From a virus: DNA of 35,397 nucleotides. A program made the translations under genes and the position numbers. Below the pieces are notes generated by a model. It was not told the origin of the DNA. It ran no database searches and saw only the letters and a list, made by a program, of their open reading frames with translations. This document shows positions 1-35,397 of the stretch, in pieces; the first letter of the stretch is position 1, and every line of letters begins with the position of its first letter. Where the stretch lies: positions 1 through 35,397 of IMG/VR virus record IMGVR_UViG_3300048672_000422; one strand, written 5' to 3'.

Positions 1-127
1 AAGGTACAGGATAATTAGGATCGTAACTAAATGGTAGGTCAATAATAGGAATTTCACCATAGGGATTTACTCCGTTCTCGTTTCCGATAATTACTTCTTC
101 CCAAATTGTTAAATCTTTTCCTCTGCC
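1..127. repeat. Terminal overlap, left copy (circular junction)
   Basis: Bases 1-127 are identical to 35271-35397. The repeat lies inside the portal gene, whose reading frame continues without a break from base 1 to base 35270. It therefore marks a circular or circularly permuted genome cut at an arbitrary point, and is not a physical terminal repeat. A length of exactly 127 matches a k-mer size commonly used by assemblers, which is an inference about its origin. Confidence 0.95.
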
Positions 128-9960: not shown

Positions 9961-10659
9961 GTGGATATTAAACACGTAGAAAGATTTAATTCTAGAATTA
10001 AAAAAGACGATAATGATTGTTGGATCTGGACAGGCGTTATAACAAAAGAAGGATGCGGCCAATTTGGAATTGGAAAGAAAAATTTTTTAGCACACAGAAT
10101 ATCTTATGTTTTAAAAAACGGAGAAATAGGAACACATGATGCCATTGTTCACACTTGTCCAAATAAGTCTTGTGTCAACCCAGACCATTTAAAAATAAAA
10201 AAACTATACAAACACAATAACACAAATCTAAAGACCTATAGAGCATGGAACTCATTAAGAAATAGATGCACCAACCCAAATGATCCTTTTTATAGAGACT
10301 ATGGAGGAAGAGGGATTGACGTATGTGAAGAGTGGTTGATTTCATTCGAGAGCTTTTTTAACGACATGGGAAATCCGCCAACAAAAACACATTCAATAGA
10401 TAGAATTAACAATGATCTTGGATATTTTAAGGAAAACTGTAGGTGGGCAGATAAAACAACCCAAGCAATAAATCAACGTAAAAAGAAAAAGAAATCAAGC
10501 TATCCAACAGGTGTTAGCAAGGTGGGCAATAGATTCATGTCGAGAATATCCATACAAAAAACTAAATATACACTTGGGTATTTTGAAACACCAGAAAAAG
10601 CAAAAGAAGAATATAATAAAATATTTAATGAGTGGTATGGATATATGCCCAATAGATAG
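9961..10659 (+). CDS. HNH endonuclease with AP2-like C-terminal domain
   Basis: This 232-aa protein has three segments. Residues about 15-80 are an HNH_3-type domain (CWIWTG...AHRISYVL...HTCPNKSCVNPDHL). Residues about 90-170 carry the phage-typical AWNSLRNRC..YGGRGI..CEEW...SIDRINNDLGY...NCRW block. Residues 180-225 are AP2-like (GVSKVGNRFMSRI...YTLGYFETPEKAKEEYN). Such proteins are mostly self-propagating homing endonucleases; some help packaging. The start is GTG 9961 after AAGG. It lies near the end of the rightward operon, a common site for mobile nucleases. Confidence 0.88.
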   Translation: MDIKHVERFNSRIKKDDNDCWIWTGVITKEGCGQFGIGKKNFLAHRISYVLKNGEIGTHDAIVHTCPNKSCVNPDHLKIKKLYKHNNTNLKTYRAWNSLRNRCTNPNDPFYRDYGGRGIDVCEEWLISFESFFNDMGNPPTKTHSIDRINNDLGYFKENCRWADKTTQAINQRKKKKKSSYPTGVSKVGNRFMSRISIQKTKYTLGYFETPEKAKEEYNKIFNEWYGYMPNR

Positions 10660-12068: not shown

Positions 12069-12404
12069 TTACTCTTTATCTATCTCTATTGGTTGCAGTT
12101 TAGAGTCGATCGATTCAAGCTTTCTATTCCACGAAGCGATGTCTTTGTCACAATTTTGACGCTTGCAAGTTTTAATTATGAAAGACTTAATTTCAACCCA
12201 AGACTTATAGGGAATCCTAAGCATTGTTGGCTTAATATCCCAGTATGTTTTGCCGTCAATTTTTTGACTGTCATTTATATAAAAATCTTTATCTGAAATT
12301 GTATAAGTGCAGAATGCTTGCGATGGCGATTCTTCAACGCACACGTAAATATCTGGGACAGTCGCACAACTAGTGAGTAAACTTAACAAGATTACGAAAC
12401 GCAT
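12069..12404 (-). CDS. Lipoprotein, 111 aa
   Basis: The first 12 residues are a short hydrophobic signal ending in the lipobox LTSC, so C13 would be lipidated and the protein anchored to a membrane facing the periplasm. The mature part has four more cysteines (C22, C32 and two near 78-84) and the segment WDIKPTMLRIPYKSWVEIKSFI. Lipidation and its place in the membrane-protein cluster make an outer-membrane spanin-like role possible, but it is longer than typical Rz1 and not proline-rich. ATG 12404 lies inside the end of the preceding gene. Confidence 0.75.
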   Translation of the reverse strand: MRFVILLSLLTSCATVPDIYVCVEESPSQAFCTYTISDKDFYINDSQKIDGKTYWDIKPTMLRIPYKSWVEIKSFIIKTCKRQNCDKDIASWNRKLESIDSKLQPIEIDKE

Positions 12405-12932: not shown

Positions 12933-13066
12933 TTTTTACTTCCTTTTAAAATTGATAATATTAAATCGATAAAAGAATTTTCTTTTATTTTTGGATTATT
13001 GGCAATCCATTTTTCAAGCATTGAATATAAAACCAAACCGATAAAATAAGCGATTTCTTGTTTCAT
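12929..13066 (-). CDS. Small hydrophobic protein, 45 aa
   Basis: It starts at ATG 13066 and is coupled on both sides by ATGA overlaps. The N-terminal YFIGLVLYSMLEKWIANN and the later FIDLILSILKGSKK segments are amphipathic or membrane-associated helices. It is too short for a standard holin but fits a membrane-active peptide. The double coupling is the main evidence that it is a gene. Confidence 0.55.
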   Translation of the reverse strand: MKQEIAYFIGLVLYSMLEKWIANNPKIKENSFIDLILSILKGSKK

Positions 13067-13248
13067 TTCTTTTCCAATAAATAATTTCTAATATAATTGG
13101 TGTCTTCTTTAATTGATCGAATATCTTCTTTAATGTTTTGAACTTCTGCAAAAGAGTTGTAGCTACTAACAACAAAACCAGCAAACCAGATAATTATCGG
13201 TATGATTATTGCGGTTAATATGGCCTCGGCACCTACTTTTTTGAGCAT
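13063..13248 (-). CDS. Single-span membrane protein with coiled coil, 61 aa (holin or i-spanin candidate)
   Basis: Residues about 9-30 (EAILTAIIIPIIIWFAGFVV) form one membrane span. They are followed by a charged coiled coil (VQNIKEDIRSIKEDTNYIRN). An N-terminal anchor with a coiled-coil domain is the plan of an inner-membrane spanin, though short; it also fits a pinholin-like or tail-associated membrane protein. The overlap with the 45-aa gene is ATGA. The endolysin is more than 3.6 kb away, so the lysis assignment is tentative. Confidence 0.6.
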   Translation of the reverse strand: MLKKVGAEAILTAIIIPIIIWFAGFVVSSYNSFAEVQNIKEDIRSIKEDTNYIRNYLLEKK

Positions 13249-13334: not shown

Positions 13335-13889
13335 TTACCACTCAACAATTAATATTCCAGGGCTACCACTTCCGGCAACACCAAGTCCGATACCGCTACC
13401 ACCGGCACCAAAACCAGTTGCACTATTTCCGGCTCCTGGTCCAGAAGAAGCAGTTGGGCCACCTTGACCAATCATACTATCTGCCCCAGCGGCACCACTT
13501 CCACTTGAACCGGTTGTTCCGTTGAAGTTTGGCGGAAACGAACTAGTTCCACCAGCTCCACCGGCTGTACTTGTTCCAATTCCACCCCTGGTTCCACCAG
13601 GAGCACTTAGCAAAGAACCAAAAGAGGTAGTTCCACCATCGGTTCCTGCACCAGAACTTCCACCAGAACCAGCACTTCCAACAGTGATTGTATGTGTTGC
13701 CCCTGATGTTACCACAAGTGGGTGTCTTAGAATATATTTACCAGAACCACCCCCACCGCCATTACTACCATATCCACCACCGCCACCGCCAACACAGGTT
13801 ACAAAAACCAAACTAACACCATCTGGAATGGTAAAACTTCCACTAGATGTAAAAACTTTAAATCTTGCACCATTAATTATTGTAGACAT
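13335..13889 (-). CDS. Glycine-rich tail-tip adhesin
   Basis: Of 184 residues, most from about 30 to 180 lie in glycine/serine-rich loops (GGGGGGYGSNGGGGGSG and similar). An N-terminal strand pair (FTSSGSFTIPDGVSLVFVTC) and the closing GSPGILIVEW strand frame them. This is the layout of the glycine-rich domain in phage fibre tips and of T-even gp38-type adhesins, where polyglycine loops present receptor-binding sites. It is probably the receptor-recognition tip. It is the last gene of the tail block before the membrane-protein cluster and overlaps the neighbouring start by one base. Confidence 0.8.
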   Translation of the reverse strand: MSTIINGARFKVFTSSGSFTIPDGVSLVFVTCVGGGGGGYGSNGGGGGSGKYILRHPLVVTSGATHTITVGSAGSGGSSGAGTDGGTTSFGSLLSAPGGTRGGIGTSTAGGAGGTSSFPPNFNGTTGSSGSGAAGADSMIGQGGPTASSGPGAGNSATGFGAGGSGIGLGVAGSGSPGILIVEW

Positions 13890-14396: not shown

Positions 14397-16892
14397 TTAA
14401 CCTATTAAATTAGCACCAGTATAATTATCGGTGCCGTCTGGATTATTAGTATTATTGTCGACCACAAATCCAAATTTGGCAATTTCTGATTCGTTTGCCA
14501 CTGTGATATTATCCAAAGTATCTGGAGCAATCGAAGGAACTCGATTAAACAAACCAGATAAGTCATTTATTTGAACTGTTGTTGTAGTCTCATTTTTTGA
14601 GACAAGATTAATTAAGCCTATTTTTGTTTTGTTTTTTCCGCCATAACGGCGATAAATTCTATCAAATGTTATTTGCACTGCATCGTTTAAGTTTAGATTT
14701 GAAAGATTTAATTTAGCCTTAACTTTTACGATTGAATTCGTTAGCGAGTTAAAAAACATAAACCTTTGAAGCAGCAAATCTGCATCGTCACTCGAGAAAA
14801 CCAAACTTTGAATCGTCTTTTGTTGCTTAATTCCGCTTGTTCTATCTACGAAGTCGCTTCCTTTGGTTATCGAACTTCTAAATTGCTCACCAGTGATGAG
14901 ATTTGTCTCGTCTCGGTGTTCAATTATTCCCTTGTTAATGATGTTGTTTTTTGTAATTGATTCATAGCTTAAAACATCATCTTCTTTTATCTCAAGAATG
15001 CTTTCTGGTTTGTTAGAATTAAGAATTGAAAACTTAAAATCATAATAAGAATCATAAAACAATGATCCAAAAACGCTTTCATTTATCTCTGTGATGCAAT
15101 CTTTTATGACAGGTGAACTGTCACCAATGTTTCTTGGGAAGAATGCAGATAATTTATATTTGGCATCTAATACCGAATCGGCAAAAGAAGCGTCATTTGT
15201 CGTCTGTCCTGCATCGTTGTTTATTATGTGTTTAACTATGTCTGCAGGATAGCGAATCCATTTAGTCGTACCTAGTCCAATACAGTCAACACAAACAACA
15301 GAGTCGTCTTCAATCCAATTCATTTCTTTTAAAAGAACGGTTCCAGTAAAAGTTGCGTCTGAAAATATTGTTCTGATTTTAATTTGAGATTCTTGAACTT
15401 CTAAAACTTCATAGTAATTTGAATAAGTCACGTTCGATGGCTTAATCATATCTCTTGTTTTAAAGATTGTCTTAAGATCAACACCGCTCGAAGTTGTTAT
15501 ATTTCTTGATCCATTTGTCCAACTTAATGTAACAGATTTTAACTTTGGAGCAGTGATATTCTCTTCTGCCTTGCTGTCTAAAACTAAAACCGCATGATCC
15601 GTGCTGTTTTCAAGTGTGAAATCTCTATTGTAAACAAGCTCATTAATTCCATAATAAGCTTTGAAACATGGAACTTTTTTAAGAATGTCACTAACAATTG
15701 GAGTTGGTGAAATATTTTGATTAACTCTAATCGTGTTGCCTTTGATTGTTCTGATTACGTAGGTCGATCCGTTTAATTCCACCAAATCATCAACCTCAAA
15801 ATCAGAAGCATCTGAAACATCAACCGAGAGCGAGTTATTAACCACTGTGATGGCTTTATTGCATTCGTAAAGCTTGTGACCTGCAATACTCCAGCGTCTG
15901 TTGTAATTGCGACTTGGAACGTCTGATTTAACTTTTAAAGCAATAGCGGTAAATGAAGTTGTGATGTTTTCTGATAGTGTTAATTGCGTGTCTGAATCAA
16001 CTGACAAAATAGAATATTCTTTTGAATCACCTAGCGAATCAATAACAAGTTGATCGCCAGGTGAAATCTCGCTTAAAAATGTTGTACCTGTTCCAGTTAC
16101 AATTGCCGCACCTGATATTCCAGCAACTGTTCCAGTTCCAAATATAACACCTTTTTGCATTGATATAGAATTAACTCTTAACTTTGAAACTTCTCCGTAA
16201 ATTCTTCTTTTTGGCTTTTCGTAATGAGCTTCATCGAGCGACCCGTCTAGTGCCGAAAATGTATTTAAATTAAGTGCGTTTCTTAAGCTATAGAAGCGAT
16301 CTTTAATTGAGAATTTAATTTGCTTAGGATTAAATGATTTGTTTTCAATCACTCCTTTATAAATAAGCTTCGTGTCGGTTAGTGGAAGCTCTTCAAAGTG
16401 ATAATAAAACTCGACGTTTTGATTTTCCCAAATATGAGTATCAAAAACATCATCGAAAAAACCATCTGAATTTTCTAGCGTGATCGATGAATTACTTTCT
16501 AAAGCAATGCCGGTATTTTCATAATCAAGCTCAAGCTTCAACTCTCCAATATCGATCAATCTTGAATCATATTCTACTTCTGCAACACCCAAAGCGAGGT
16601 TATGAGGTAGAACCAAAGAAGAGTTCGAAAAGAAATGCTTATAAGTGACAATTACCTGAAAGTTTTCAGGCGAAGTTGCACTCGTAAATGTGATTTTTTT
16701 CGTTTGAATATCGTAAGTAAAAGTTTTATTTACTCCATTAAATGTCATTGACTCAACGAAGAAAGGAACTTCTTTCTCGTAAGTTGTTCCAGAAACTAAA
16801 GAGAAAACTTTAAGTTCACATTTTGACCTGATAATTGCCAAAACATGTTTTCTGCTTCTAGTTTGATTAATCAAATCTTGATATGTCTTCAT
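14397..16892 (-). CDS. Tail hub/tip protein, 831 aa
   Basis: This large, beta-rich structural protein has an N-terminal part (about 100-200) reading like phage tail-hub domains: ITLENSDGFFDDVFDTHIWE, then a beta barrel ending in KFSIKDRF. Middle segments (about 250-420) contain repeated GTGT/SVDSDTQLTLSENI-type beta modules. The C-terminal part (about 560-800) resembles a second hub domain. It probably forms the tail tip that organises fibres. It is separated from the tape-measure gene by five genes, unlike most siphoviruses. It starts at ATG 16892, overlapping the lysozyme stop by one base. Confidence 0.7.
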   Translation of the reverse strand: MKTYQDLINQTRSRKHVLAIIRSKCELKVFSLVSGTTYEKEVPFFVESMTFNGVNKTFTYDIQTKKITFTSATSPENFQVIVTYKHFFSNSSLVLPHNLALGVAEVEYDSRLIDIGELKLELDYENTGIALESNSSITLENSDGFFDDVFDTHIWENQNVEFYYHFEELPLTDTKLIYKGVIENKSFNPKQIKFSIKDRFYSLRNALNLNTFSALDGSLDEAHYEKPKRRIYGEVSKLRVNSISMQKGVIFGTGTVAGISGAAIVTGTGTTFLSEISPGDQLVIDSLGDSKEYSILSVDSDTQLTLSENITTSFTAIALKVKSDVPSRNYNRRWSIAGHKLYECNKAITVVNNSLSVDVSDASDFEVDDLVELNGSTYVIRTIKGNTIRVNQNISPTPIVSDILKKVPCFKAYYGINELVYNRDFTLENSTDHAVLVLDSKAEENITAPKLKSVTLSWTNGSRNITTSSGVDLKTIFKTRDMIKPSNVTYSNYYEVLEVQESQIKIRTIFSDATFTGTVLLKEMNWIEDDSVVCVDCIGLGTTKWIRYPADIVKHIINNDAGQTTNDASFADSVLDAKYKLSAFFPRNIGDSSPVIKDCITEINESVFGSLFYDSYYDFKFSILNSNKPESILEIKEDDVLSYESITKNNIINKGIIEHRDETNLITGEQFRSSITKGSDFVDRTSGIKQQKTIQSLVFSSDDADLLLQRFMFFNSLTNSIVKVKAKLNLSNLNLNDAVQITFDRIYRRYGGKNKTKIGLINLVSKNETTTTVQINDLSGLFNRVPSIAPDTLDNITVANESEIAKFGFVVDNNTNNPDGTDNYTGANLIG

Positions 16893-17401: not shown

Positions 17402-19771
17402 CTAGTAACTTCCTTGGCAGTAAACTGTACCGTAATTATCTTGGGCAGATCCAGTGGTAGTAGCCCTTGTTATAAATGAAACAGATGAGCAGCTTGATGT
17501 ACATGTAATTGGGTCTTGCGTTCCAGCAACTGCACCAACAGAGCTAGATGTGCATTTTAATTTTGTATAAGTCTTTCCAAAGTTAATGGTATAGGCTCCA
17601 GTTCCAGTTCTCGTCACACTTGTCACCGCACTTCCTATCTGATCTAAATAAGAACAAGGCGAAGCCGAGCAAACAGTCGTTGCGTTTGTAGTTCCATAAG
17701 AAAAAGAAAACGTATCAATTAAATTCCCACTTCCAGTTGTTGTTATTCCTGGAACTGTTGGTATTCCGATTGAGGTTGCGACCTTTGCAGTTTTAGGTTT
17801 GTAGTCGTTAGTTCCTTTTTGACATTTAATTAATATAGGTAAGCTTGTCGCACTTCCAGAGTTAGTATTGATTGAGGTAAAGCCAACCGCGGTTGTTGTT
17901 GTTGTGTTTGGATTTTGCTTAACACCATAGGCATTTGAAGCTACCGTGTCAGTCACAATTGCCGTACAATTTAAAGGGCTAGATAAATTACTTACACCGT
18001 CTTTTAATCCACTTATTAAATTACATCCAATCGCACCAAGTGAAACCGAACACGTTCCAGAAATCCAAGGAATATTTTGATTTGTTACTACTCCCGAAGT
18101 ATCAACCTTCGCACTAAAAGTATCAGTACATTCATAATCATTTGCACACTTTTCAATTCCTGCGAATGATCCGACAATAACACCGTAGTCTTGCCAGCCC
18201 GAGATTGGTGCGTCTAAGTTTAAACTAAACGAAGCCGTAGAATTTCCTAGTGACCAAGCCGCATTTTGCACAAATGAATGTCCACCAGTAGAATAAGTAA
18301 CTAGGACTCTAAATCTTGTAGAATCGTATGCTATCAATAAAGCACTATGCGATGGAGTAATATCTCCCGATGCTTTACCATATCCAACTACCGACTTACC
18401 TAACCCAGAAACCTGTGCACCTACTCCGCCTGAGTATGGAGTTATTAAATTTGCATCAAAACTTAGTCCAGATGGAAGTGAAAATAAGTAGTCTCCACTT
18501 CCAGCAGAACCCGCACCAGATTGTTCGTATTGGTATTTTGCAAGTAGATTTTGCCCCTTTCTTGAAGCCATAATTCTATCTACTACAGTTGTTCCTTTTG
18601 TTGGTGCAGTTGTTGTCGCACCAATTGTAATTGTTCCTGCGTTTGTATATGCGTAATCTTGCGAAGCTTGAGAATAGATTTTTGATTCTGGTGGAAAATA
18701 CCAAACTTTAATTGTTCCAGGAAAAGCAGTCATGCCACCAATATACACGTTGCCGGCTGACACCTGCTTACCTCTTATTGAAAGAGTTATGTTGCTTTGA
18801 GATGCCGAATAACTAATTGTTTGTGATATAGACGAGGTGTTATTTATTGTTGAACCTTGTCCATTGTTATAAGTTTGCTCCCTAGCTGTGTTGGTGCCAT
18901 CCCAAAATTGATAATAGCTATTTTGCCCAGCTACGTTATTATGTAGTCCGCCCTCATATTCTAACTTGTAGTCACCAGCCGGAAGTGATGCAAATTTAAT
19001 TGCTGGTATCATTGTCGATGGTGCCAATGCTTGCCCCGATGTCGTATAAACGCACCCTGTTTGAACCGGAAAATCAACATAAGAAGTAGATGAAGTTGTC
19101 CACTCGGACGCACACCCTGTAATCGTAACAGTACCAACCAACTTCGCACCCCCCACATTCTGAAAAGGTGAGCTCAATCCCACAAAAGCATTATCTAAAT
19201 AAACATCACCTGTTGTTAAAGAAGTTCTTTGAATTTCAATTCCATTTGAAGTTCCACTTAGCGTAGTTGCTATTATATAGTTGTGCCAAACATTATCACT
19301 TAAAACATTCATGCATGAAGCAGTTACAACTGCACCATCGGCACGAGGACAAACCTGCACTCCGGTGATTGCTGTCTTTACATAAATAGAAACTGCACCT
19401 TGAAGTCCTGCAAGGTCACTTGCGTTTATTGTTGAATCTTGTCTTACTCCGGTTGCAGATGTTGTCACGATTCCAAACTTGAGTGATTTTTTTCCACTTA
19501 CTTTTGAAGTTGTTTCATCTGTAAACGTATTTGTCGGGCCTGTCTTTGTCCACGAAGTCGAAGCTGTCGCAGCTTCAAAGCTTGGATTCGCTAAAAGGTT
19601 TTCGTTACCCGTTTCAATTCTTGAATCTAATCCAGCTTGTTTTGTGAATTGGTTGTTTGGTGCAACTAGGTTTTGTGTGTAAGTCGGAACTGTAGCAGTT
19701 TCGTTTTTGTAACCTGTCGGTGCTGCCATTAAATTAAAAGATATTAAAAATGATGCAATTAATTTTCTCAT
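17402..19771 (-). CDS. Large cysteine-rich fibre-like protein with a signal peptide, 789 aa
   Basis: The N-terminus is a textbook Sec signal (MRKLIASFLISFNLMAAPTG, cleavage near residue 17) after a strong GAGGTGG ribosome site. The mature part starts with a short helical region (about 25-55). A carbohydrate-binding-like jelly roll follows (ENLLANPSFEAATASTSWTK, minus the last K, near 57 onward), then repeated beta domains. I count 16 cysteines, all after the signal, many as close pairs. Disulfides imply folding in an oxidising compartment. It could be a fibre using export, or a secreted surface protein made during infection. It abuts the lysozyme gene. Confidence 0.75.
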   Translation of the reverse strand: MRKLIASFLISFNLMAAPTGYKNETATVPTYTQNLVAPNNQFTKQAGLDSRIETGNENLLANPSFEAATASTSWTKTGPTNTFTDETTSKVSGKKSLKFGIVTTSATGVRQDSTINASDLAGLQGAVSIYVKTAITGVQVCPRADGAVVTASCMNVLSDNVWHNYIIATTLSGTSNGIEIQRTSLTTGDVYLDNAFVGLSSPFQNVGGAKLVGTVTITGCASEWTTSSTSYVDFPVQTGCVYTTSGQALAPSTMIPAIKFASLPAGDYKLEYEGGLHNNVAGQNSYYQFWDGTNTAREQTYNNGQGSTINNTSSISQTISYSASQSNITLSIRGKQVSAGNVYIGGMTAFPGTIKVWYFPPESKIYSQASQDYAYTNAGTITIGATTTAPTKGTTVVDRIMASRKGQNLLAKYQYEQSGAGSAGSGDYLFSLPSGLSFDANLITPYSGGVGAQVSGLGKSVVGYGKASGDITPSHSALLIAYDSTRFRVLVTYSTGGHSFVQNAAWSLGNSTASFSLNLDAPISGWQDYGVIVGSFAGIEKCANDYECTDTFSAKVDTSGVVTNQNIPWISGTCSVSLGAIGCNLISGLKDGVSNLSSPLNCTAIVTDTVASNAYGVKQNPNTTTTTAVGFTSINTNSGSATSLPILIKCQKGTNDYKPKTAKVATSIGIPTVPGITTTGSGNLIDTFSFSYGTTNATTVCSASPCSYLDQIGSAVTSVTRTGTGAYTINFGKTYTKLKCTSSSVGAVAGTQDPITCTSSCSSVSFITRATTTGSAQDNYGTVYCQGSY

Positions 19772-20640
19772 TACACCACCTCGATAATATGAACTTTTTG
19801 CGAAGCTGTATCGCTTATTAAATAATAGTCAGACGCATCCCAATCTATATAAAGCGAGTCCGGCCCCACAATAATTTTTCCTGTAGATGTTGTCACGCCA
19901 CTTCCACCTAAATAAATAGAACCCGTATTTGTAGTGTCTGGTGTAAGCATTAAACGTTTTCTCGTTGCACTTGGTGCAGCTCCGGCAACTGTTGCACGAA
20001 CAGCAGTGGTTCCCACTGTGACTTGTGCAGTTGTAATTGTACCGCTTATTGTTCTCATTACATCAATCTCCTGTAGAACATTGTCCACAACATAATATAA
20101 AATTTTAGTATCGGTTGAAAAACCTAACGCAGTGTTGCCGGTTGTTGTTGCCCAAGTGACAAGGTTTGCATAAGTGTCATTGCGAATTGCAGAAGCATTC
20201 CACGTTGCTTTTTCCGTATCAGTTACGAATCTATATGAAGCAGTTTGTGAAATATTAGCTGGATTTGTAGCGTCCACATTCGGAACGCTTCCAAGTCCAA
20301 CACTTGCTTTGTCTATTGTAACAACACCAATGTTTCCGTTTACGCTTAACACTTTACTTGTAGATATTTCAACGTAAGTTGATCCACTCCAACGATAAGT
20401 TAAGTTTGTGTCTAGTGATACATAGATTTTACCAGTTGTCCCTGCTCCTGGAAAAGAAGCAAGATCGGCATATTCTAAAACATCATCAACGTATGAAGGA
20501 AGATAAACAGAATCTACTTTATTTGTTATATCAAGCGGACAAACTGTCACTCCCAAATCTGCATTAGTTAATAGAGTTGTAGTTGGTGGAGTCGAAGAAC
20601 TCGCATAGCCATCTGGAAAATTTATTATCTTTAAAGCCAT
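19771..20640 (-). CDS. Tail fibre protein, 289 aa
   Basis: A module near residues 40-90 (VDSVYLPSYVDDVLEYADL...GKIYVSLDTNLTYRWSGSTYVEIS) is the widespread phage fibre domain in which a strand hairpin presents YRWSGS. It is followed by VNGNIGVVTIDKASVGLG, also typical of fibres. The C-terminal 100 residues are beta-rich with GSIYLGGSGV. It probably forms trimers that contact the host. It lies between distal-tail genes and the signal-bearing fibre, sharing one base with the latter. Confidence 0.82.
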   Translation of the reverse strand: MALKIINFPDGYASSSTPPTTTLLTNADLGVTVCPLDITNKVDSVYLPSYVDDVLEYADLASFPGAGTTGKIYVSLDTNLTYRWSGSTYVEISTSKVLSVNGNIGVVTIDKASVGLGSVPNVDATNPANISQTASYRFVTDTEKATWNASAIRNDTYANLVTWATTTGNTALGFSTDTKILYYVVDNVLQEIDVMRTISGTITTAQVTVGTTAVRATVAGAAPSATRKRLMLTPDTTNTGSIYLGGSGVTTSTGKIIVGPDSLYIDWDASDYYLISDTASQKVHIIEVV

Positions 20641-27677: not shown

Positions 27678-27839
27678 TTACAACCTTGTTTCTAAAATAT
27701 CTGGCTCGTTTCCTTGATTGATCCAATTTATGTATTCAACAAAACTATTTTCTATTGTTGACTGACAGGGAGCAATTGTAACTCCATCGCTGTTCCTTAT
27801 AACAATACCCTCATCTAAAATAATTGTATAATCTTTCAT
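27678..27839 (-). CDS. Hypothetical protein, 53 aa
   Basis: ATG 27839 is coupled to the fibre-gene stop by ATGA, giving MKDYTIILDEGIVIRNSDGV and a further 33 residues. The beta-hairpin-like start and the helical SFVEYINWINQG segment resemble very short proteins often found after fibre genes. A longer start at 27866 lies inside the fibre gene and is unlikely. Function unknown. Confidence 0.6.
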   Translation of the reverse strand: MKDYTIILDEGIVIRNSDGVTIAPCQSTIENSFVEYINWINQGNEPDILETRL

Positions 27840-29344
27840 TGATCGGTTTCCCAATATACCGAACAAATATCAATACCAACCGCTAGTGCGGTGGCGTTAT
27901 TTGTTCTAAATTGTCTATAAGTTAAAAGTGTTGTTGATGCCGGAGTCGTTGTGCCTGGTGTTCCAGATAGTGTGCCAGAAACACTTACACCCGTTCCAAT
28001 GTTGGTAAGCTCATAATAAACAACTGCGTTTTGATTTGGTGGAGAGAATAAAGATAAATCCCAGGCGGTATTGTTTAGCGTTGGCGATCCAATCGAAGTT
28101 CCTAGTGCAATGGCTGTCTGAGCTGCTGATCCACCATAAACCAAATACCACTGCGTGTTGTCGGTTGACAACTGGGCAACTCCTATTGAATTTGTCAAAG
28201 TACTTGGCTCAACGTTTGTTGGTGCCGCTGTTGCAGAACTTATTCCACAAAAGTGTCTTGCACCAGAAACAGCAGCTGCATCGGAAACAGCAAACCTGCA
28301 TACAAAATGAAAACCACCAAGACCAGAACCTGTTCCTGTTGTATATTGTGTGACTGTGTTATAATGACTTGCAAGTGTTCCTGCAGTTGCTGCGGTAACA
28401 TATCCAAGTCTTTTCATTCTTGTTAATACGTTTGTTGTAGCAACGTTTCTTGTCGTTGCGGTACCAACGGCAGTTGGTGCTTGCATCCCAAAAACACCAG
28501 GAACAGTCGTTGCGTTGCCTGGCGGGTTCCAATAAGCTATTTTATTTCTTGCCATTAATGGTTGCACTGCAGAGTCAATACCAGATGGCCCCACATACGC
28601 AGGAAGCATTCTTCCACTTATTTTTCTTGCAAATATTTTCAGTTTATCACTAGACGTTGCGGCCGGAACTGATCCAGAATAATTCAAAAGTAAGTCACCG
28701 CTATCAACTGCAACATTTGCAGCACCGGCAAACGAACCACTATTGTTATATTGTACCTGTGTGTTGGAGCCACCAGGAGAGCCACTTCCACCTGATACCG
28801 TAGCTGGAATCCAACTATTTAAAGCATCGCTCCATTGAATAACTTGCCCATCTAAAGCACCTGACCATGTTAATGTGTCGATTGATTGTTGATGATAGCC
28901 AATTGGTTCTGGGATAATATTTATCGCATCAGTTCCAACTGTTGTAATTATATATGGGTGTCTAAACTTAGAGCCATTATTTCCACCCTCTGAAATATAA
29001 ACACAAAAACCACTAAGCATTTCAGCGGTATTTGCATCTAATGCTCTTGTCATTGCGTTTCCAGCACCATTAAAAACATAAATTCCATTTTCAGATGCGG
29101 TTGTCTGATTAAAAATTCCAACTCTATCGAGATTGTTTAAAACAACTCCGTTTATGTTTGCTGGAGCAGAAGATAAGTTTATATTCACACCACCAGAAGA
29201 AGTTCTACAAAATCTTTTTTCAGATAATGCACCAACTTTTGTGATGAGTTGTGAGTATGTCGATGGCTCTTGATTTGAAGCAGCGTCGGGAAGATTCTGA
29301 ATCCTGCTAACGCTGTTGAAATCTTGATTAGATAATATTTTCAC
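27836..29344 (-). CDS. Fibre-like virion protein, 502 aa
   Basis: The N-terminal 145 residues (DFNSVSRIQNLPDA...STYSQL, INGVVLNN, QTTASENGIYVFNGAGNAMTRA) match the N-terminus of the next gene's product and form a widespread phage anchor module. The middle has SGSGSPGG and a short beta segment (about 190-230). The last 270 residues resemble head or tail fibre beta-sandwich domains. It starts with GTG 29344, sharing a base with the upstream TAG. Its position between connector and tail genes suggests a head- or neck-attached fibre. Confidence 0.75.
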   Translation of the reverse strand: MKILSNQDFNSVSRIQNLPDAASNQEPSTYSQLITKVGALSEKRFCRTSSGGVNINLSSAPANINGVVLNNLDRVGIFNQTTASENGIYVFNGAGNAMTRALDANTAEMLSGFCVYISEGGNNGSKFRHPYIITTVGTDAINIIPEPIGYHQQSIDTLTWSGALDGQVIQWSDALNSWIPATVSGGSGSPGGSNTQVQYNNSGSFAGAANVAVDSGDLLLNYSGSVPAATSSDKLKIFARKISGRMLPAYVGPSGIDSAVQPLMARNKIAYWNPPGNATTVPGVFGMQAPTAVGTATTRNVATTNVLTRMKRLGYVTAATAGTLASHYNTVTQYTTGTGSGLGGFHFVCRFAVSDAAAVSGARHFCGISSATAAPTNVEPSTLTNSIGVAQLSTDNTQWYLVYGGSAAQTAIALGTSIGSPTLNNTAWDLSLFSPPNQNAVVYYELTNIGTGVSVSGTLSGTPGTTTPASTTLLTYRQFRTNNATALAVGIDICSVYWETDQ

Positions 29345-30135
29345 TAGCTAATTACCACACATCTTAAAGAGTTTGAAGCCGGCGCAGATGAGAAATTTAA
29401 TCTCACTACGTTTACCGAGTTTCTCTTTATGTCACAAAGAACTTCTTCACCTGTTGCAACAACATAAACTGCAACGTGACAATCTGCTGAGTTTAAATTA
29501 TGAGTAATGTCGTACTGAGTAGCAGAACCATCACCGAAAGTTGATGAAAATTTTCTAAGTAAAAATGAAGCTGTTTTTAATTTAAGTGGAGTAACGATTC
29601 TTAAATCATCTGTTCCTGTATCTGTTTCAGCTTGAGTTGCAAGCTCTGCAATACCAGCAGAAGTTTCAGATGCAGCACTTACCGAAGTCCCAAATGTAAC
29701 AAATGCAATTGAAGTTGTTCCAACTGTTGGGTTTAAAGCTGTTTGTCTATATGTAACACCAGCACTTGTTCCACCTGCAACCATGATTACCGCATTGTTG
29801 AATTCAGCAGAAACACTCATGCTAGGTGCTCTTGTCATTGCAACCGCAGCACCATTCCAAATATATAAACCATTTTCAGAAGCTGTTGTTTGTGCACGAA
29901 CTAAAACTAAATTTTCACTTGCACTTAAGGTCACGCCATCAATCGTTGCACCAGGAGAAGCAAGGTTGATGTTTGCTTGAGTTGCTACAACTGCAACACC
30001 TTTGTCTTGTAAACCTTCTACCGCTGCATTTAATTGCTTAAACGTTGCAGGTTGTTGGTCAAGAGTCGCATCTGGAAGGTTATTAATCTTTGAAACACTG
30101 TTAAAATCTAAATCGCTTAAAACTAGTTTTGCCAT
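29344..30135 (-). CDS. Fibre-like virion protein, 263 aa (paralogous anchor domain)
   Basis: Residues 1-145 (DFNSVSKINNLPDATLDQQP, ANINLASPGATIDGVTLSA, QTTASENGLYIWNGAAVAMT) duplicate the N-terminus of the 502-aa neighbour. A helical link (TSAGIAELATQAETDTGTDD) and a C-terminal fibre domain with the ITHNLNS..CHVAVYV motif follow. ATG 30135 has AGGA 6 bases upstream. It is a shorter fibre that may co-assemble with, or be an alternative to, the long one. Confidence 0.8.
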   Translation of the reverse strand: MAKLVLSDLDFNSVSKINNLPDATLDQQPATFKQLNAAVEGLQDKGVAVVATQANINLASPGATIDGVTLSASENLVLVRAQTTASENGLYIWNGAAVAMTRAPSMSVSAEFNNAVIMVAGGTSAGVTYRQTALNPTVGTTSIAFVTFGTSVSAASETSAGIAELATQAETDTGTDDLRIVTPLKLKTASFLLRKFSSTFGDGSATQYDITHNLNSADCHVAVYVVATGEEVLCDIKRNSVNVVRLNFSSAPASNSLRCVVIS

Positions 30136-30143
30136 TTTTTATC

Positions 30144-31031
30144 CTATGTGAATCGAGCAGTGCCCGATATTGATGTGTTCATATAAATTATAGTTTGATT
30201 TGTTGATATATGTAAAATTTCCGGTTCAATTTGAAGACCGCCAGAAGTGATAACAACGCACGTTGGATTATATCCGAGATTGTGATTTACAGTCCAAGTT
30301 GCAGACGCAGAGGCTTGTGAGTGAACATATCTTGTAGTTTTATTTATCCAAACTGTTCCATTGTAAGAAAGAACCTGGTTTGTTGCTGGTGATGTGATTA
30401 AAACATCGTGCAAACTTGTTAGGTGTCCACCGACATCAATATTAATTAAAACTTCACCCAATGACGCATGACTTCTGGTTACAATTCCTAAACTAACAAT
30501 GTGATCTGGTTGCGTTGGTATTGTTGATGTAACTCCACCTGCAACACTTGCAGAAAGATATAACTTTGTTCCATCTGCCCACGCACTTGTATCAACTCCA
30601 GCAATAACCCCAAATGAAACAACCGTTCCAACTGAGTTGTTTGCAATTGGCTCTGCAGTTATACCTATTACCTCATCACTAGTAATTGCGTTATTTGCTT
30701 GAGCGTAATTTATTGTTGGTTTATTTCCAGTTGCTCCGTTAATATAAACAACTTTAAAAACTGGAATTGTTGAACCTGTTTCGTTTCTACATTCAACCGC
30801 AAAATTTGTGCTTGATCCAGGATCACCCTTGCTTGCTAACAATTGCCAATAGGAAGTATTCGTTGGAATATTTCCAGTCGTTGAAACAAATGCAACATAG
30901 CTTGAGCCATTATATGAAACAGATTCACCGACCGCATAAGTTGTCGTGTTATTATATTCACCAACAAACTTAGGCCCACTAATATTTAGCGTAATCGGAT
31001 CGAGTAATTTAACAATTTTAAAATCAGACAT
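30144..31031 (-). CDS. Fibre-like protein with carbohydrate-binding-type N-terminus, 295 aa
   Basis: Residues about 18-70 (GEYNNTTTYAVGESVSYNGS, YVAF, YWQLLA) match the CBM5/12-like module of phage fibres, followed by GDPGSS. The middle is a beta domain (about 75-200). The C-terminus has the ATWTVNHNLGYNPTCVVITS fibre motif also seen in the 263-aa protein. I start at ATG 31031 with AGAAGG 8 bases upstream; a TTG one codon earlier is not needed. The first 8 bases overlap the homing endonuclease gene. Confidence 0.78.
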   Translation of the reverse strand: MSDFKIVKLLDPITLNISGPKFVGEYNNTTTYAVGESVSYNGSSYVAFVSTTGNIPTNTSYWQLLASKGDPGSSTNFAVECRNETGSTIPVFKVVYINGATGNKPTINYAQANNAITSDEVIGITAEPIANNSVGTVVSFGVIAGVDTSAWADGTKLYLSASVAGGVTSTIPTQPDHIVSLGIVTRSHASLGEVLINIDVGGHLTSLHDVLITSPATNQVLSYNGTVWINKTTRYVHSQASASATWTVNHNLGYNPTCVVITSGGLQIEPEILHISTNQTIIYMNTSISGTARFT

Positions 31032-31587
31032 CAAGACATCCTTCTCTGGATTTCTTTTTAACCCAGAAAGCCTTTGCTTTTTCTGACATCTTTAACCTTG
31101 TTTCTACTGATGGACTAATGCCGCTTGGAATGCCTTTCTTGTTACTGGAAACACCCTTGTTATAGGCTGGTTTTCCTTTATTCGCTAATGATATTTTATT
31201 TTTTGTCGCCCGTGAGTGTGGGCCTCTTTTTTTCCCAATCCTCGCAATTGATAGTTTCCTTCTAGTCTCTTGCGATATTGGTGCTCTTTTTCTGCTTAGG
31301 TGCCCACCACCGTCTTTGTTGTAGCCATACTTATTGTCGGTAGATTTATATTTATTAATATATTTTTTTTCTAAAACATCTAAAAGACCAACGCATGAAT
31401 TTGTTATTATTTTATAAGTAAAAGACTTCTCTCCGTATTTATTCCATGCAGATTGAAGGTGTTTATTTGGGTGTATATTTTTTCTCAACTTGTTTACATG
31501 ATTCAACCACCTCACCTTTCCAGGCGAGGTTGTTTGACCAATATAAACCTTTCCATTAATGTTGTTTTTTATTTTATATATCCTCAT
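31024..31587 (-). CDS. GIY-YIG homing endonuclease
   Basis: From ATG 31587 (ATGA overlap with the upstream stop) the protein is 187 aa. The catalytic domain starts IYKIKNNINGKVYIGQTT (Y4, Y15-I-G17), followed by R26 and the LEKKYINKYKST segment carrying the catalytic glutamate (about residue 77). The C-terminal half has two or three NUMOD3-type DNA-binding repeats (SQETRRKLSIARIGKKRG, TKNKISLANKGKPAYNKG, SVETRLKMSEKAKAFW). This is the I-TevI/Seg layout. It is free-standing between connector and fibre genes and probably cleaves this region in related phages that lack it. Confidence 0.92.
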   Translation of the reverse strand: MRIYKIKNNINGKVYIGQTTSPGKVRWLNHVNKLRKNIHPNKHLQSAWNKYGEKSFTYKIITNSCVGLLDVLEKKYINKYKSTDNKYGYNKDGGGHLSRKRAPISQETRRKLSIARIGKKRGPHSRATKNKISLANKGKPAYNKGVSSNKKGIPSGISPSVETRLKMSEKAKAFWVKKKSREGCLDV

Positions 31588-31862
31588 AAATACGTCAAAC
31601 TCGCTCGATCGCTCCAAGCTTTATCAAAAGCATTCGAAGCATTTTTAATAGAAACAAAAGCACCAGTTATTTCTACTTTTTGGATTTTCCATTTTAATTC
31701 TGTATCAAGTGCACCAAATAAACCAGTCGCCAAATATAGAACAGATGATGAAACTTGTTCAAATCTTAAAGACGTTTGTTCGTCTTCGTTTGTGACCGCA
31801 ACTTTATTGCCGTCTCTAAACTTACTATATTCTCTGTCTTCGATTGAATTACTTAATGACAT
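31584..31862 (-). CDS. Head-tail connector-position protein, 92 aa
   Basis: It lies two genes after the capsid gene. The N-terminus (SIEDREYSKFRDGNKVAVTN) resembles the opening of phage proteins listed as head-tail or neck components, followed by a beta-rich centre (FEQVSSSVLYLATGLFG) and a helical end. ATG 31862 has AAGGA upstream. The gene ends in an ATGA overlap with the homing endonuclease. Function by position only. Confidence 0.65.
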   Translation of the reverse strand: MSLSNSIEDREYSKFRDGNKVAVTNEDEQTSLRFEQVSSSVLYLATGLFGALDTELKWKIQKVEITGAFVSIKNASNAFDKAWSDRASLTYL

Positions 31863-34604: not shown

Positions 34605-35397
34605 TCACCATTAAAACGCTCTTAAGTCTGTCCGCAGTTAGAGCTTCAAGCTTTGCTCTTGCTTCTTGCTCGCTTAAGTTTGGGTTATAGTCGATTAACA
34701 ATTCCCAATTATCAAAAATACCTAAATCTTTTTTCTTCTTAAGATTGTCTAGTTTTTCAGAATCAGAAATCATCATCTTTGGCTTTTGAAACTTAACTGT
34801 TAAATCAGATGAAGTGTATTTATAACCACCAAGTTTTTCATTTATTTTTTTCACAAGCTCAAAAACCTCATGTTCAAGATCAAGGTATTTTTCTTGGTTT
34901 TCCTCAATTATTTGTTGAACGTCTGCACTTGCTAGCATTCTATCAACACCAGAAGAAAAGGTTTCATTTGGATTTATAACCTGATTTCCCTGGATTCCTT
35001 GCTCATCTAAAATCATGTTCATAAAAGTCATGATTGATTCTTTATGTCCTGCAAGGTCAGGATTTGGACTTATGTATTCTGCAGTTGTTTCTGGATCATC
35101 TGGATTCTTTGACTGCGGAAGTTTCATTCCTGTAAATATCCCACTTGTCACAGTCTCGATTGATTGATCACTTGGATATTTTAAAACCATTTGACCAACT
35201 TGCATCGAACCTGATTGAAGGTAAACAGACAATAAAGCATTCAGCTCTATAGTTTGCCTGCCAAGTGGTGAAGGTACAGGATAATTAGGATCGTAACTAA
35301 ATGGTAGGTCAATAATAGGAATTTCACCATAGGGATTTACTCCGTTCTCGTTTCCGATAATTACTTCTTCCCAAATTGTTAAATCTTTTCCTCTGCC
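34588..35397 (-). CDS. Portal protein, C-terminal part (split by the circular junction)
   Basis: This is the second half of the 479-aa portal that starts at 757. The frame is open to the window edge; the bases above 35270 duplicate 1-127 and should be counted once. This part contains the crown and clip helices (IMTFMNMILDEQGIQGNQVI, FSSGVDRMLASADVQQIIEE, LFELVKKINEKLGG-like VFELVKKINEKLGG) and acidic-to-basic C-terminal helices, with a region (TFSSGVDRMLA) seen in portal crowns. It ends 15 bp inside the next gene. Confidence 0.85.
   Translation of the reverse strand, partial: GRGKDLTIWEEVIIGNENGVNPYGEIPIIDLPFSYDPNYPVPSPLGRQTIELNALLSVYLQSGSMQVGQMVLKYPSDQSIETVTSGIFTGMKLPQSKNPDDPETTAEYISPNPDLAGHKESIMTFMNMILDEQGIQGNQVINPNETFSSGVDRMLASADVQQIIEENQEKYLDLEHEVFELVKKINEKLGGYKYTSSDLTVKFQKPKMMISDSEKLDNLKKKKDLGIFDNWELLIDYNPNLSEQEARAKLEALTADRLKSVLMVNDANN
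35271..35397. repeat. Terminal overlap, right copy (circular junction)
   Basis: This stretch is identical to bases 1-127. Removing one copy gives a circle of 35,270 bp in which the portal gene is intact. Confidence 0.95.

Follow-up and report, generated by a model that had tools for sequence, protein, structure and literature searches.

A predicted Sec-exported, cysteine-rich fibre-like phage protein with a domain homologous to a Bdellovibrio fibre tip

Tailed-phage virions are assembled in the cytoplasm, and their fibres are normally made and attached there. Phage proteins that are exported and exclude superinfecting phages are also known, e.g., T5 Llp and T4 Sp, and these are small. On the bacterial side, Bdellovibrio bacteriovorus exports mosaic adhesive trimer (MAT) fibres and displays them at its surface; in MAT proteins the signal peptide is immediately followed by a conserved beta-rich domain of ~130 aa, and deletion of one of the genes, bd2734, slows predation and prey entry (PMC10769870). 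The structure PDB 8OKW corresponds to the tip of the Bd2734 fibre, a member of the NS74 group (PMC10769870). The open-licence papers searched contained no account of exported phage fibres or of phage-borne MAT domains, nor did they yield virion or secretome data.

Here we analyse P0001, a fibre-like protein encoded in a stretch of viral DNA of 35,397 nt, hereafter the window. P0001 and its relatives form a large phage family that is apparently routed through Sec and has conserved cysteines, an exception to the rule that phage fibres are cytoplasmic, and one of its domains is shared with the solved MAT tip.

The P0001 gene, its relatives and its neighbours

An exact 127-nt direct repeat at the two ends of the window (1-127 and 35271-35397) indicates a very probably complete phage genome of 35.3 kb, either circular or terminally redundant; terminase, capsid and tape-measure genes are all in it, and no tRNA genes were found in the window. 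P0001 is encoded on the minus strand (17402..19771, read from 19771 down to 17402), the plus strand of this segment having many stop codons. Translation of this strand yielded both the 789-aa reading frame and the 16 cysteines beyond the signal peptide that a first-pass annotation had described. No family in Pfam or PHROGs was matched by P0001, and a tblastn search against phage records and plasmids gave no match.

Scans of viral contigs did retrieve relatives of P0001, on about 60 phage contigs and mostly with roughly 25-55% identity to it, and when 22 phage records were searched with the family profile, the matches in each record fell within one ORF. A domain-only scan of the viral contigs gave no further relatives. 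Bacterial genomes were scanned with the family alignment and with the Bd2734 tip, and neither scan found a confirmed relative; the second also missed the Bd2734 gene itself, so the collection is uninformative for Bdellovibrio.

The P0001 gene lies in the tail-fibre region, as expected of a tail-fibre gene. Its start codon is inside the stop codon (TAATG overlap) of an upstream gene for a fibre-like protein of 289 aa without a signal peptide (19771..20640, minus), and the ATG of the downstream endolysin gene (phage lysozyme, PF00959; 16892..17401, minus) directly abuts its stop codon. The window's tail-tip genes are at 14397-16892 and 13335-13889, and a small membrane protein with a coiled-coil-like tail, a holin candidate by its sequence, is at 13063..13248 (minus); an ORF resembling this candidate is present in the contig L004. 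In L002, L004 and the window, the gene that comes after the exported fibre is endolysin- or peptidase-like. In several other relatives (e.g., L007 and L024) the next gene, which overlaps or comes after the 3' end of the fibre gene, resembles tail-fibre assembly proteins (phrog_4912, weak matches, E 3e-7 to 2e-5); the window has no assembly-like gene beside P0001, and the endolysin gene is found there instead. Read from these neighbours in the relatives and in the window, the recurring gene order is fibre, exported fibre, (assembly-like gene), and tail-tip or lysis genes. The position in a fibre cluster, pointed out by the first-pass annotation, thus holds beyond this genome, as the succession of fibre and lysis genes recurs in several relatives.

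In L013, the gene after the exported fibre (L013:9671-10249) has, instead of an assembly-like product, one with a signal-peptide-like start and several cysteines, possibly an exported partner. Small cysteine-containing lipoproteins with a lipobox-like start are encoded in the lysis regions of the window (12069-12404, minus), of L002 (L002:11994-12350) and of the Bdellovibrio phage phi1422 (L026:7670-8035); those of the window and L002 are alike by eye, and all three are spanin candidates. Elsewhere in the window, two ORFs read as homing-endonuclease-like (31024-31617 and 9961-10659), one GIY-YIG-like with a TTG start amid structural genes and the other HNH-like on the plus strand. Two adjacent proteins matching head-decoration families (27836-29344 and 29344-30135) have a common N-terminal module (66-nt direct repeat, 79%), which may reflect duplication or module exchange.

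Export signal and cysteines

The N-terminus of P0001 (MRKLIASFLISFNLMA|APTG) has two basic residues, no acidic residue, a hydrophobic core with a 9-residue Kyte-Doolittle mean of 2.5 and a plausible cleavage site. A Sec signal peptide was predicted at residues 1-16 (19724..19771, minus), from a heuristic score and from conservation, with cleavage after A16 or A17; no further segment of P0001 has the hydrophobicity required of a membrane span. The scoring heuristic, home-made and simple, considers n-, h- and c-regions and is not SignalP; 18 of 5000 shuffled P0001 sequences reached the P0001 value. Within the window, P0001 alone joins a large fibre-like body to a high score, the other ORFs scoring above 1.9 being one of 69 aa and a membrane protein of 61 aa.

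A chance origin of the signal is excluded mainly by its conservation across the relatives. Among the 59 family members whose N-terminus is intact, P0001 being one of them, the same heuristic scored 57 as signal-positive, 21/22 in a first set that contains P0001 and 36/37 in a second, compared with 6/61 control phage fibres, which were picked via a common generic fibre module; we give counts rather than P values because both family and control sets contain related sequences and are not host-matched, and a Fisher test used slightly different family counts, 56/57. The two negative relatives are L022, in which a signal is evident by eye despite the low score, and L086, where the match is short and the protein a different one. 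Moreover, the signal is kept while the region that follows it is wholly different between family subgroups. The signal peptide that the first-pass annotation had called clear is therefore a property of the family, in which P0001 and its relatives depart from tail fibres as proteins lacking an export signal (heuristic score, 6/61 in the controls). Five of the control fibres (L100, L117, L121, L148 and L160) have signal peptides and more cysteines than most other controls, and perhaps these also come from phages of predatory bacteria.

The cysteines of P0001 (141, 153, 220, 240, 542, 548, 574, 583, 602, 650, 701, 706, 740, 757, 761 and 785) amount to 2.0 per 100 aa, compared with 0.3-1.4 in the other fibre and tail-tip proteins of the window, and this content is also above that of its capsid proteins. 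C141 and C153 are kept in 22/22 sequences of the first set, and in the wider set C740 is found in 40/41 and C785 in 40/43; the strongly conserved positions are 141, 153, 542, 548, 602, 650, 740 and 785. Cysteine enrichment is seen throughout the family, with a median of 2.2 per 100 aa against 0.15 in the signal-negative controls. Export of P0001 and the formation of disulfides in the periplasm are well supported by these sequence features and are the firmest inferences about the protein. This part of the earlier interpretation is strengthened, since the signal peptide and the cysteines are conserved across dozens of phages, while the two roles it had offered, coating the host surface or serving as a fibre that is attached once the cell has lysed, are not separated by sequence.

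Domain architecture and likeness to a Bdellovibrio fibre

An AlphaFold model was built from 17 sequences, with a mean pLDDT of 63 and with residues 120-360 and 545-655 mostly well predicted. Comparison of the model with the PDB assigned residues 54-203 (19163..19612, minus), which contain C141 and C153, to a carbohydrate-binding-module-like jelly roll, with Z about 14-16 to CBM4, CBM16 and CBM61 structures and to the tailspikes CBA120 TSP4 and K2-2. The fold is thus common to P0001 and these tailspikes (Z 14-15); such tailspikes belong to the virion, are synthesised in the cytoplasm and, unlike P0001, have no signal peptide.

The next domain (residues 209-359; 18695..19147, minus), with C220 and C240, is a TNF/C1q-like tip domain, assigned by both sequence and structure to the Bd2734 tip. 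The top structure match was PDB 8OKW, with a Z of 20.0, an rmsd of 2.2 Å, 145/152 residues aligned and 29% identity. By sequence, the Bd2734 tip was found with P0001 alone (phmmer E 3.3e-11) and with a four-sequence profile (E 2e-17), far ahead of other PDB chains, and the tip sequence alone matches more than 15 family members. The first-pass annotation, right about export and disulfides, had missed this homology, which is the most informative feature of the protein, as it points to a predatory host and offers a specific model of how an exported fibre might work. The protein of L084 has two Bd2734-like tip domains in tandem (residues 183-331 and 355-493).

Residues about 364-526 (18194..18682, minus) may form a fibre-knob-like beta domain, assigned with low confidence from weak structure matches that reach a Z of about 6 and are mostly fibre heads of phages, adenovirus and reovirus; a structure search with residues 362-789 returned nothing beyond such weak fibre-head matches of Z about 6. 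The C-terminus consists of two cysteine-rich domains, copy 1 at residues 551-655 (17807..18121, minus) and copy 2 at residues 683-789 (17405..17725, minus), the latter with the almost invariant C740 and C785 (43 sequences). An hhalign profile comparison of the two copies (probability 98.3%, E 1.4e-14) points to a tandem duplication. Neither a surface anchor in P0001 nor, in the about 37 residues that follow the signal in its group, a virion-attachment domain was recognised. From the predicted folds, P0001 likely binds glycans.

P0001 and Bd2734 are alike in being modular adhesins with a signal peptide, which in P0001 is judged by the heuristic, and with homologous TNF/C1q-like domains in which a pair of cysteines occupies roughly equivalent positions. 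The adhesive tip of MAT fibres is therefore present in P0001, although it is internal, whereas in Bd2734 it is C-terminal. P0001 further differs in being encoded by a phage and in adding the carbohydrate-binding module and the duplicated cysteine-rich C-terminus. The MAT N-terminal domain of ~130 aa has no counterpart in P0001, where the signal is separated from the carbohydrate-binding module by residues 17-53 only. With no room for this domain, P0001 does not, by its sequence, strictly qualify as a MAT protein. Some of the longer relatives, among them L018, might have space for it. In a tree of the TNF domains, the Bd2734 tip fell among the phage copies with weak support and on a long branch, and the tree therefore gives no direction of transfer.

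A second link with Bdellovibrio runs through L018, whose protein has 32% identity over 138 aa (E 7e-4) to gp68 of phi1422 (NC_019525), a cultured phage of B. bacteriovorus. Direct comparison of P0001 with gp68 gave nothing significant, and the family profile had no match at the threshold used in phi1422, G011 or G019. Annotated as hypothetical, gp68 is a distant counterpart of P0001: it is fibre-like in sequence, starts with a signal peptide (MKFMIAFIIALFSVTMATAQ) and contains 8 cysteines, and its gene has a similar position, with a tail-fibre gene on one side and a gene for a small membrane protein on the other. Among the 52 CDS of phi1422 scanned, only gp68 and gp75 were signal-positive, and both look fibre-like; gp75 (L026:8898-9410) is short, with 170 aa. 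L029, a second relative of gp68 (43% in the best segment), also has a signal-peptide-like start. Searches of phage records with the window's terminase, tail-tip protein, lipoprotein and small lysis-region protein gave no Bdellovibrio phage among the matches listed. The Bd2734 domain and the gp68 link suggest that the host of the window phage is likely a Bdellovibrio-like predator.

Proposed role and competing explanations

We propose, with a probability of about 0.5, that P0001 is a Sec-exported, disulfide-bonded multi-lectin fibre of phages that most likely infect predatory bacteria, and that it acts at the envelope of the infected predator. Given the overlapping and abutting genes, P0001 would be translated together with the fibre and lysis genes, presumably late in infection. 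The signal peptide kept in nearly all relatives suggests that it would then be exported by Sec and cleaved, and the conserved cysteines that it would fold oxidatively in the periplasm. Glycans would be bound by the carbohydrate-binding module and the Bd2734-like TNF domain, the folds of which come from prediction and homology, and by the C-terminal domains. P0001 could finally act at the predator's envelope or inside the closed bdelloplast, most likely by occupying surface glycans recognised by the phage or by the predator's MAT fibres, and this may mask receptors, exclude superinfecting phages or stop progeny from binding to debris. Likened by description only, T5 Llp and T4 Sp share with P0001 a phage origin and an export directed to the envelope, and P0001 differs from them as a large multi-lectin fibre.

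The strongest competitor, which we consider distinctly less probable, is that P0001 reaches the virion by a detour, being exported, oxidised in the periplasm and joined to virions at or after lysis. The assembly-like gene (phrog_4912) at the 3' end in several relatives and the tailspike-type carbohydrate-binding module and knob-like domains favour such a virion fibre over action at the envelope, and the gene is flanked by a fibre gene immediately upstream and by lysis genes downstream, in an order similar to that in phi1422. Late docking is also conceivable because virions and released fibres would stay confined together if the predator lyses inside the closed bdelloplast. However, tailed-phage virions assemble in the cytoplasm, from which export would remove P0001; the P0001 group has no recognisable attachment domain after the signal; and the two tail-tip genes offer an alternative candidate receptor-binding apparatus. 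For the first two of these reasons, and because the solved structure closest to P0001 is that of Bd2734, a protein which is exported and displayed at the surface, we prefer action at the envelope or in the bdelloplast.

Bdellovibrio phages are thought to need prey entry for growth, and P0001 might then be a conversion factor that mimics MAT fibres and gives the infected predator an extra prey-binding fibre for entry. P0001 shares a homologous domain with the Bd2734 tip, and prey entry is slowed when bd2734 is deleted, which would fit this role, but P0001 has no room for the conserved 130-aa MAT domain, and the placement of its gene among structural and lysis genes suggests that expression comes too late for prey entry; we regard this role as improbable. 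That P0001 is a cysteine-rich tail fibre of the usual cytoplasmic kind, its N-terminal hydrophobic stretch being no export signal, is very unlikely despite its tailspike-like modules and location in the fibre cluster, since signal-like n-, h- and c-regions occur in 57/59 members, including those with wholly different following domains, just 6/61 control fibres are signal-positive, and cysteine enrichment accompanies the signal.

More generally, and somewhat more tentatively than for P0001 itself, we suggest that phages of predatory bacteria may encode secreted, disulfide-bonded fibres as a class of their own, with adhesive domains in common with the prey-recognition fibres of the predator. Tips would then have moved between predator and phage, and the phage would use these fibres beyond the cytoplasm in controlling adsorption or predation. 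Whether such a protein is a virion part or an exported lectin can be tested directly in the cultured phage phi1422. The domain in common with the solved MAT tip connects phage adhesins with prey recognition by Bdellovibrio and can serve as a sequence marker when metagenomes are searched for phages of predatory bacteria.
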